Source: Microcaldota archaeon
GTDB lineage: Archaea > Micrarchaeota > Micrarchaeia > Micrarchaeales > Micrarchaeaceae
Direction: 5' to 3'
Assembly (NCBI GenBank): GCA_021792395.1
Contig: JAJYUR010000006.1
Span: forward strand, 1 to 48,024
DNA: 48,024 nucleotides
Of this stretch, positions 24,459 through 30,799 are shown in pieces. A program made the position numbers and the translations under genes. Below the pieces are notes generated by a model, which made no database searches, was not told where the DNA came from, and saw only the letters and a list, made by a program, of their open reading frames with translations. Within the stretch, counting starts at the first letter, position 1. Every line of letters starts with the position of its first letter.

Positions 24459-24785
24459 TTATTTGCCCCTAGTCTGGCCCTTATATTTTTTTATGAGCTC
24501 GATTGCCTGTTCGATTGCCCTTTTGACATCTGCAGCGGTTCTGGCGCCAGTGCATATGATCTTCCCGTTCTTGAAAAGCAGGAGTGCTGACTTAGGATCA
24601 TGAACCTTGAATATGGCTCCAGGGAACTGTTCTGGCTCATAATCTACATCATATGAGAGTTTTGCTAGCCCATAAAGGTCTAATTCGGTCGCCAAATCTG
24701 CACTTGCGACGATATTCTCAACCCGATAGGTCGGTTTTAATATGACATTTTTCTTATGCTCGTTAGGGCTTAGGGCTTTTGGCAT
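24459..24785 (-). CDS. tbp: Single-repeat TATA-binding protein (half-TBP)
   Basis: TBP binds the TATA box and bends it for TFB and RNA polymerase. Known archaeal TBPs have two saddle repeats in about 180 aa; this 108-aa protein has one: VENIVASADLATELDLYGLAKL (22-43), YEPEQFPGAIFKV (49-61) and PKSALLLFKNGKIICTGARTAADVKRAIEQAIELI (64-98). The two DNA-intercalating Phe positions are kept at F54 and F71, 17 residues apart as in each TBP lobe. No second repeat is found before the start or after the TAA in any minus frame. It should need to dimerise to form a full saddle. It is divergent from eL21 with an AT-rich promoter gap. Whether the genome also has a full TBP cannot be seen here. Confidence 0.88.
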   Translation of the reverse strand: MPKALSPNEHKKNVILKPTYRVENIVASADLATELDLYGLAKLSYDVDYEPEQFPGAIFKVHDPKSALLLFKNGKIICTGARTAADVKRAIEQAIELIKKYKGQTRGK

Positions 24786-24880
24786 TTATACACCTGGTGC
24801 ATATGGGGCATTAAATAATAAATATATTGCGTATTAAATAAGTATGCAAAATTTAAGTCTTATTTGCAAAAGGTAATAAA

Positions 24881-25171
24881 ATGACAAAAAGATCAAGCGG
24901 ACTGTTTTCCGGAAGGACGAGGAATCTGGCCAGGCACCATAAGCCTTTGGATCAGCGCATAAATACATTCATCAAGGAATTTGAAGTGGGCGACAAGGTT
25001 GCCATAGTGCCTAAGGGGAATGTTGCCAATAGCCCCCACCCGAGGTATAAAGGCAGGATAGGTACTGTTATAGCAAAAAGAGGCAAAGCCTATACTGTGG
25101 AAATCACGATAATGGGTGCAGTGCGCAAGCTCACAGTGCCTGTTATGCACTTGGAGAAGGCAAAATTATGA
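24881..25171 (+). CDS. rpl21e: 50S ribosomal protein eL21
   Basis: Archaeal/eukaryal large-subunit protein. The 96-aa product has the expected SH3-like barrel (FEVGDKVAIVPKGNVANSPHPRYKGRIGTVIAKRGKAYTVEI) and basic N-terminus. AAGGTAAT lies a few nt before the ATG at 24881. In many archaea eL21 is followed by rpo4 and DUF655; here those genes are 1.7 kb away on the other strand and eL21 instead overlaps a GHMP-family gene by 4 nt. Confidence 0.96.
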   Translation: MTKRSSGLFSGRTRNLARHHKPLDQRINTFIKEFEVGDKVAIVPKGNVANSPHPRYKGRIGTVIAKRGKAYTVEITIMGAVRKLTVPVMHLEKAKL

Positions 25172-26845: not shown

Positions 26846-27415
26846 TCAATTTCTAGGCCTTTTTGAATAAGGCTTCGTAAACACGTAAAACCTCTCCCCC
26901 CCTTCAAGCTCCTTCACTACCCTGTCACCTATGAGCTTTATTGGATCCTGCAGCAGCTGAACCCTTGAAGTTATATCATCAAAGCTTTCAAACACCTTTT
27001 CATTCCTTGCCCCCAATATCGCGTTCAGGTGCTTTTTCCCTATCCCTGGAAGCAATTCAAGCGAATGCTCTCTTATGTTTATTGGTCCTGCCTTATTGAA
27101 AAAATTCACAAACCTCTTCTCGTTTGCCTTGATTATAAGCCTTATAGCATTGGAAAGGTTCTCTTTGGCCGTTTGGGTAAGTTCTTCATACCCTATCCTA
27201 AACTTTATTACCGATATCTTGTCACGTTCGTCCTTGCCTATGTACACGCGTTCTCCAGTCGAAAGAACAACGCCTTCCTTGGGCGTAGCCTCAAGCAAGG
27301 TAAACCATTCCTCCCCTATGAGCTGTGTGAGAGGTTCAGCCCTATTAGAAAAAGACTTCCCAGTATGCATGAAATCAAGAACAACTGCATACTCCTCGCG
27401 TCTCTCTGTTTCCAT
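26846..27415 (-). CDS. DUF655 family protein
   Basis: Conserved archaeal protein of unknown biochemical role, often encoded with eL21, rpo4 and the 16S rRNA dimethyltransferase. The 189-aa product has an N-terminal OB-like beta region (EYAVVLDFMHTGK...EGVVLSTGERVYIGK) and a helix-hairpin-helix-like segment (REHSLELLPGIGKKHLNAIL, about 117-136) that suggests nucleic-acid binding. It follows rpo4 on the same strand after 29 nt, keeping the usual pairing. Confidence 0.88.
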   Translation of the reverse strand: METERREEYAVVLDFMHTGKSFSNRAEPLTQLIGEEWFTLLEATPKEGVVLSTGERVYIGKDERDKISVIKFRIGYEELTQTAKENLSNAIRLIIKANEKRFVNFFNKAGPINIREHSLELLPGIGKKHLNAILGARNEKVFESFDDITSRVQLLQDPIKLIGDRVVKELEGGERFYVFTKPYSKRPRN

Positions 27416-29633: not shown

Positions 29634-29671
29634 CTTTGTCCTATTTAGACGAGATAAAATGGTGTTGTATC

Positions 29672-30799
29672 ATGAATACCCAAAAATCGAAAAATACAAG
29701 GCACGAATCAGAGAAATCAGATTCTAAACAAAGTGCCCCTTCTGGAAAAAAGATAACGGTCAGCCATAATAAGCTCAATGTAACCGATATCTCCCAGGTT
29801 AAAAAGCGGGGCCGTCCAAGAGGCAGCCATAATGGCAGCAGCCAACTTGAAACGGCAGAGCAGCAGCAATCGCACAGACTAGTGATAAATCCTGATGCAA
29901 CGGTATGCCCAAGCTGCGGCAGCTCAGACATAATATTCGATAGCGAAAAGGGAGAACGCGTGTGCAATAATTGCGGCCTCGTAATAGAAGAGAACGTTAC
30001 TGATAGTGGACCCGAATGGAGGGCTTTCGATGCAGACCAAAGGAACTCGAGGGCAAGAACGGGCGCTCCGATGAAATATACAAGACCTAATAAGGGGTTA
30101 GTAACTGAAATAGATTTATACAACAAGGATATCAGGGGAGTGAGAATCCCATCAAAAAGGCAGGCCCAGCTTTATAGAATGAGAAAATGGCACAAACGTG
30201 CAAGCATAGCAAGTTCGAGCGAAAGGAACTACCTCATAGCGCTGCCGGAACTCAACAGGGTGTCGAGCTATTTAGGTTTGCCTGAAAATATAAGGGAAAA
30301 TGCAGCCCTCTTATACAGGAGGTGCGTGCAAAACAACCTGATACGGGGAAGGCCAATAGAAACCGTAGTGCAGGCTGTGATATATGCTGCATGCAGAAAG
30401 GCTGGCATGCCAAGGACGCTCGACGAGATAGCCACAATATCCGGATTGCCGAAGAAGGAGATAGGCAGGGCATATCGTGCAATATCGCATGAATTGGGGC
30501 TCAAGATACCACTTACCGATCCAGTAGCGTATGTTCCGCGCTACGTCAATGCGCTTAAGCTCAGCGGCGAAGCTCAGGAAAAAGCTGTCGAACTTTTAAA
30601 AGAAGCGATGAAGAAAGGCTTAATATCGGGAAGGAGCCCTACTGGGGTTAGCGCTGCTGCAGTTTACATAGCTGGGGCATTGGCAGGCGAACGCAGAACC
30701 CAGAAGGAGGTAGCCGATGTTGCAGGTGTCACCGAAGTGACCATACGAAACAGGTATCGGGAGCTCAAGGAGCAGCTTAACATAGACGTCAATCTGTGA
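29672..30799 (+). CDS. tfb: Transcription initiation factor TFB with N-terminal AT-hook extension
   Basis: TFB (TFIIB homologue) links TBP-bound DNA to RNA polymerase. The 375-aa protein has a zinc ribbon (C79, C82, C98, C101), the B-reader/linker (SGPEWRAFDADQRNSRARTGAP) and two cyclin-fold repeats (about 175-265 and 270-370; the second ends in the recognition helix EVTIRNRYREL). Unusually, about 75 residues precede the zinc ribbon, which in archaeal TFBs is normally near the N-terminus; this part is charged and contains KKRGRPRG (44-51), a canonical AT-hook that binds the minor groove of AT-rich DNA. An in-frame TTG at 29636 lies before the expected transcript start. A palindrome follows the stop. 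Confidence 0.93.
   Translation: MNTQKSKNTRHESEKSDSKQSAPSGKKITVSHNKLNVTDISQVKKRGRPRGSHNGSSQLETAEQQQSHRLVINPDATVCPSCGSSDIIFDSEKGERVCNNCGLVIEENVTDSGPEWRAFDADQRNSRARTGAPMKYTRPNKGLVTEIDLYNKDIRGVRIPSKRQAQLYRMRKWHKRASIASSSERNYLIALPELNRVSSYLGLPENIRENAALLYRRCVQNNLIRGRPIETVVQAVIYAACRKAGMPRTLDEIATISGLPKKEIGRAYRAISHELGLKIPLTDPVAYVPRYVNALKLSGEAQEKAVELLKEAMKKGLISGRSPTGVSAAAVYIAGALAGERRTQKEVADVAGVTEVTIRNRYRELKEQLNIDVNL

Follow-up and report, generated by a model that had tools for sequence, protein, structure and literature searches.

The window, by which is meant the whole 48,024-nucleotide stretch of archaeal DNA that was analysed (contig JAJYUR010000006.1), contains a gene for a TATA-binding protein (TBP) with a single repeat, here called TBPa. 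TBP is generally described as two repeats, in archaea as well as in eukaryotes. The features of the locus are collected in Table 1. Two of the neighbours of TBPa are conserved: the gene for ribosomal protein L21e adjoins TBP in 46 of 80 TBP loci, one-repeat and two-repeat Micrarchaeota genes alike, and the DUF655 gene is present at 44 of the 80. TBPa-type one-repeat genes and two-repeat genes thus share one locus. Immediately 5' of the TBPa start codon there is a Shine-Dalgarno-like GGTG motif, which is likewise prominent upstream of genes in A_DKE.

Table 1. Features of the TBPa locus, and the second one-repeat TBP gene of the same assembly
Feature	Position	Strand	Basis
TBPa, one-repeat TATA-binding protein, 108 aa, ATG start	24459..24785	-	ORF, PF00352, orthologues
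Single TBP repeat (N24, V26, stirrup E50-P-E-Q53, F54, F71, I77, T79)	24483..24728	-	PF00352, residue table, AlphaFold2 topology
AT-rich divergent promoter region, 95 bp, TBPa/rpl21e intergenic	24786..24880	.	sequence
Ribosomal protein L21e (rpl21e), conserved TBPa neighbour	24881..25171	+	PF01157; synteny
DUF655 protein, likewise a conserved neighbour at the ancestral TBP locus	26846..27415	-	PF04919; synteny
TFB, zinc ribbon and two cyclin repeats, the genome's only TFB, expected partner	29636..30799	+	NCBIfam NF001658
TBPb, second one-repeat TBP, open frame of at most 156 aa	contig C31		six-frame TBP search

An earlier note had described TBPa as a frame of 108 amino acids with a single repeat, and this stands: the frame begins with ATG and has one match to PF00352, in which residues 20-101 cover positions 2-85 of the 85 in the profile (90.5 bits against a cut-off of 22.9, E 4e-26). 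The two phenylalanines that the note pointed to, F54 and F71, are indeed spaced by 17 residues, and they are 100% conserved in every aligned repeat. From an input of 29 sequences and as a single chain, AlphaFold2 predicts a complete TBP lobe with the topology S1-H1-S2-S3-S4-S5-H2 (mean pLDDT 84.7). A Foldseek comparison with the PDB aligns about 78 residues of this model with TBP lobes at an rmsd of about 1 Å. The fold, the phenylalanine pair, the N/V/T contacts and the TFB stirrup are shared with the two-repeat TBPs of archaea (Pyrococcus 1pcz/1ais, M. jannaschii 2z8u, S. acidocaldarius 1mp9), to one lobe of which TBPa is 40-46% identical. These proteins differ in having two repeats per chain where TBPa has one, and TBPa has the residues A57, K72, N73 and I77. 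The NCBIfam equivalogs for archaeal TBP (PRK00394 series) score TBPa at 65-85 bits, below their cut-offs of 181-347, with half of the model length matched. A six-frame TBP search of the whole genome found no second tandem repeat in the TBPa chain or in its contig. TBPa is a complete single TBP repeat and no fragment.

Modules of RNase HIII (DUF3378) and DNA glycosylases also have a single TBP-like fold per chain, but they are domains of enzymes, whereas TBPa stands alone and matches PF00352 at 90 bits. A domain profile search gave no DUF3378 match in TBPa, and OGG1 appeared in the fold search only at E 0.36. A frameshift or assembly error masking a second repeat can be ruled out, with closed genomes and independent MAGs having the same architecture. 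In the closest independent MAGs the orthologues are full length and 97% and 95% identical; the nearest named relatives are from Candidatus Micrarchaeota and include Ca. Micrarchaeum sp. A_DKE and a Ca. Mancarchaeum MAG. Because independent MAGs carry full-length orthologues and closed genomes have orthologues too, TBPa is not an assembly artefact.

TBP genes in the assembly and in related genomes

The earlier note held TBPa to be the only TBP-family gene of the window. This is correct for the contig, where the six-frame search finds no further TBP match, but not for the genome, which has a second one-repeat gene and a two-repeat gene elsewhere. The 0.83-Mb assembly contains four TBP stretches in all, namely TBPa, TBPb on contig C31 and those of the two-repeat gene on contig C43. 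TBPb lies at a locus of its own, distant from and unlinked to TBPa, which is conserved and includes a glycosyltransferase, an FAD-type oxidoreductase and SRP54 (neighbours named by eye from the sequence). C43 (L005, 1-8383, 8.4 kb) has a canonical two-repeat TBP together with an MFS transporter, an IS1634-like transposase, DUF72, cytochrome b and a 100-base N gap.

With a complete canonical TBP within the same assembly, it could be argued that the C43 gene, provided that the contig belongs to the strain, encodes its true general factor and that the one-repeat genes are accessory. This reading is disfavoured and highly improbable: apart from its small size, transposase, cytochrome b and gap, the contig lies at a tetranucleotide distance of 0.317 from the window (0.176 for C31, and at most 0.186 for pieces of the window of the same size), and its TBP is without A57, K72, N73 and I77 and groups with the canonical lobes. 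Among the matches listed, there is no two-repeat TBP in any other genome of family f1 or in its sister family f2, and 84 relatives are without it. C43 looks foreign because of this absence in relatives, the deviant tetranucleotides and the missing lineage residues, and it is probably misbinned. Since Thermoplasmatales are the hosts known for Micrarchaeota (PMC8975820, PMC5498576), contamination by a host is its likely origin. With TBPa conserved and C43 looking foreign, the two-repeat gene does not speak against the earlier note.

One-repeat orthologues, whose conservation in relatives the earlier note had proposed to check, are found across Micrarchaeota, including in closed genomes. In f1 (85 genomes), two or more separate one-repeat TBP genes occur in 30 of the 32 genomes with a completeness of 90% or higher. 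The four closed, single-contig f1 genomes G006, G061, G070 (952,257 bp) and G075 (989,838 bp) have two separate genes each; among them, Ca. Micrarchaeum harzensis A_DKE (989,838 bp) and Ca. Mancarchaeum Mia14 (952,257 bp) have exactly two one-repeat TBPs and no other TBP. Among the 19 f2 genomes at the same completeness threshold, 11 have exactly one one-repeat TBP and eight have two; the closed f2 genome G087 contains exactly one PF00352 stretch, as do ten more f2 genomes that are at least 90% complete. A single one-repeat TBP is the only TBP also in G085 (97% complete) and G232 (100% complete). Families f14-f26, G232 included, have one-repeat TBPs, mostly one per genome, and families f3-f13 have two-repeat TBPs. 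Much of Micrarchaeota, closed cultured genomes included, makes TBP as a half-size chain of one repeat. The living one-repeat TBP proposed in the earlier note is therefore real in the sense that it is conserved, would act in place of the ordinary TBP, and is found without any two-repeat TBP in many complete relatives.

In the repeat tree, TBPa-type and TBPb-type sequences (a and b) form separate clades, and the duplication that gave rise to them predates the split of f1 and f2. Several f2 genera retain a alone. Fixed differences between the paralogues are F/Y20, E23, G32 and A41 in a against I20, Q23, H32 and S41 in b. The pair is not a split TBP with a as the N lobe and b as the C lobe, both being in the Micrarchaeota repeat clade; such a split is also contradicted by the fact that TBPa scores equally against both lobes of Pyrococcus TBP (67.8 bits for N, 68.1 for C). 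Haloarchaea likewise have multiple TBP genes per genome, as f1 does, but each haloarchaeal copy tested has two repeats.

Some further genomes should be mentioned. Genomes of the genus g89 carry two or three one-repeat TBP genes each (in G234, L163, L242 and L243). Six fairly complete MAGs (G059, G084, G102, G217, G233 and G243) have no TBP match, probably owing to missing contigs. A seeming two-repeat TBP in f1 (L150, 2-415) was discarded, as it is a copy at a contig end whose sequence is 100% identical and which is open at its 5' end, likely an assembly artefact. No earlier report of a one-repeat TBP was found in the open-licence papers searched, and the papers on A_DKE and Mia14 make no mention of TBP.

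Pairing of chains, TFB and promoters

The canonical C lobe of TBP is the lobe that binds TFB. Its stirrup sequence, EPEQ, is invariant there and degenerate in the canonical N lobe; in Micrarchaeota it is present in 100% of the repeats, as expected if each chain must serve TFB, and this pattern is what interchangeable TBP halves would need. Of the DNA-contact residues, N24, V26, F54 and F71 are invariant across every Micrarchaeota repeat group and T79 predominates, while at position 77 the canonical V is replaced by Ile in TBPa. The residues A57, K72, N73 and I77 mark the Micrarchaeota repeats against both canonical lobes (L/M/I57, R/S/G72, S73, V77).

With good confidence, TBPa can be taken as the general TATA-binding factor of the cell and as one half of the TBP saddle, with paired chains that would bind and bend the TATA box and TFB and the BRE setting the direction. 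Two chains would pair via the exposed edge that corresponds to the lobe-lobe junction of ordinary TBP, as a homodimer (a2) in species with one gene, and as a2, b2 or a/b in the source organism. The dimer would cover a full 8-bp TATA box and intercalate four phenylalanines into it. An intact TFB-binding stirrup on each subunit would let TFB dock on either, so that the one-sided BRE together with TFB, and not TBP, would choose the end used and with it the direction of transcription. Dimerisation, DNA bending, docking of TFB and the pairings present are what we infer. In the single-copy lineages (the closed G087, and G085 and G232), a homodimer would, going by gene content, be the only way to a two-lobed TBP. 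That two copies of one type can make a working TBP is indicated by the two-repeat TBPs of Micrarchaeota, each made up of two near-copies of this repeat type.

In the source organism, a heterodimer of a and b is as possible as a homodimer, both paralogues having been kept. A stricter version, in which TBPa and TBPb form an obligate heterodimer of dedicated saddle halves, only one of them facing TFB, and homodimers are minor, is a serious possibility but falls somewhat short of being probable. It would account for the retention of both paralogues in 30/32 of the f1 genomes at least 90% complete, and for clades that are older than the f1/f2 split and have fixed residue differences. However, a alone suffices in the several f2 genera that have only this paralogue, a and b each retain the full DNA contacts and the EPEQ stirrup, and their genes are not linked.

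Promoters of relatives bear on the question of whether one chain could be enough. In G087, where the sole TBP is one-repeat, there is an upstream BRE (AA) followed at about -30 by a TTTATATA-like motif (AA..ttTAtAtA), and the two-repeat G160 has the same BRE and full TATA box. The full-length box in G087 needs two lobes. It is improbable, then, that a one-repeat TBP stays monomeric, reads half a TATA box and leaves the rest of the recognition to TFB: nothing direct points to this, although the confident prediction of a single domain would be compatible with it, and besides the full-length motif of G087, as nearly palindromic as that of G160, fused two-copy versions exist at the same locus in the same phylum.

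The earlier note expected that a symmetric TBP would have consequences for how promoter direction is set. The effect is probably small. The TFB of the window is a normal one with two cyclin repeats (442 bits against NF001658, cut-off 384), and the one-sided BRE is kept in G087 and G160. That TFB and BRE set the direction of archaeal transcription is an established rule (PMC7289017), and since both TFB and the BRE-TATA promoters of these relatives are ordinary, direction is most likely, or at least probably, set by TFB and the BRE in this lineage too. Nor does the one-repeat lineage differ from the two-repeat one in this respect, as the TATA box comes close to a palindrome in both (palindrome distance 0.127 in G087 and 0.16 in G160). 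A more symmetric TATA box in one-repeat species was looked for and not found: the motif of the whole G087 genome is as in G160, and a perfect palindrome, TTTATAAA, seen in half of the G087 genome vanished when the whole genome was used. With BRE and TATA kept, the lineage would offer a clean test of whether TFB and the BRE alone set transcription direction.

Two-repeat relatives and the history of the repeat

A dimer of one-repeat chains has long been proposed as the ancestor of all TBPs, an idea so far confined to thought experiments. Now that a cultured lineage is seen to have a one-repeat TBP, it becomes directly testable with regard to oligomeric state, DNA bending, TFB docking and the value of asymmetry. 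Like TBPa, the hypothetical ancestor (PMC4910066) is a chain of a single repeat that would have to dimerise, with subunits alike; it differs in being hypothetical, whereas the Micrarchaeota form is living, and is found inside Archaea beside two-repeat relatives. The simplest reading is that the one-repeat TBP of Micrarchaeota was reduced secondarily and does not survive from the primordial state.

The two-repeat TBPs of Micrarchaeota are of particular interest here. Their N and C repeats, each with the Micrarchaeota residues, are 51-78% identical to each other, compared with 42-54% in the TBPs of Pyrococcus, C43, Sulfolobus and M. jannaschii. In the repeat tree, all Micrarchaeota repeats, whether from one-repeat TBPs or from either half of a two-repeat TBP, are on one side and the canonical N and C lobes on the other, with support of 100/97. 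The two-repeat TBPs of Micrarchaeota are best read as two copies of a Micrarchaeota-type repeat, and not as canonical N and C lobes. Adachi et al. (2016) found clean clades of first and second repeats in 34 species, which fits a model of a single duplication, and stated that mixed repeat clades would imply more than one (PMC4910066). Unlike the N/C split in those 34 species, the Micrarchaeota repeats show mixed clades.

Gene conversion complicates this picture. In L227, L231, L233, L235 and L236, the central DNA-binding and stirrup segments of the two repeats are nearly identical, even at synonymous codons (81-97%; 94-97% in L235 and L236, 91% in L227), a sign of gene conversion within the gene of a general transcription factor, apparently ongoing. 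It follows that a two-repeat TBP might have been kept in all Micrarchaeota ancestors, with its repeats homogenised by gene conversion and the one-repeat forms arising as later deletions. Besides the identity at synonymous codons, the AU tests leave room for this: when the centre is left out and only the flanks are used, the best tree still has Micrarchaeota together, but the test no longer rejects a clade of canonical and Micrarchaeota N repeats (p 0.169). Nevertheless we regard homogenisation as unlikely, if far from negligible. With full-length repeats, the grouping of canonical and Micrarchaeota N repeats is rejected (p-AU 0.003) in line with the well-supported Micrarchaeota side of the tree. 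In the S1-H1 flank, most of whose synonymous codons differ, the N and C repeats of the same protein are 61% identical, compared with 26% in canonical TBPs, and the identity between N repeats and the C repeats of other proteins (55%) is close to that among N repeats (60%). The linkers of the Micrarchaeota two-repeat TBPs are 10 aa long, except for two of 8-9 aa, and most have KP at their end, resembling the N-terminal tails of one-repeat TBPs, whereas the linker of the C43 TBP has 7 aa and the gap in archaeal TBPs of the PDB is similar (7-8 aa). Finally, when an RpoB' tree is given Thermococcus and Sulfolobus as its root, the earliest split in Micrarchaeota sets off a clade in which all have one repeat (100/100). 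On this tree the architecture needs at least three changes. As to the number of re-fusions, a single two-repeat clade is not rejected (p 0.257), nor is a clade that unites all N repeats (p 0.147).

The balance tips slightly towards a one-repeat ancestor of the Micrarchaeota TBPs, followed by re-fusion and then by gene conversion; the preference is only slight because conversion from a two-repeat ancestor is possible and the comparison is with canonical lobes rather than with the nearest outgroup, the TBPs of other DPANN phyla. The fuller scenario, for and against which we see the arguments as evenly weighted, would be that the Micrarchaeota ancestor reduced TBP to a symmetric dimer, which was kept in most families, became a/b pairs in one order, and was re-fused at least once beside rpl21e. 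If true, re-fusion would be a replay of the founding duplication of TBP, with homodimer, paralogue pair and fused pair all alive today. Near-identical halves that appear to undergo gene conversion would also break the pattern of a single duplication that is used for dating the evolution of TBP.

Two minor observations concern gene architecture. In G238 (L244, G238:C62), two one-repeat TBPs are found at 662-988 and 1937-2266, close together and in the same orientation, a possible fusion intermediate. In nearly all Micrarchaeota genomes examined, rpoB is split, the C-terminal half of RpoB having an open frame of its own of about 610 aa (L271-L329).
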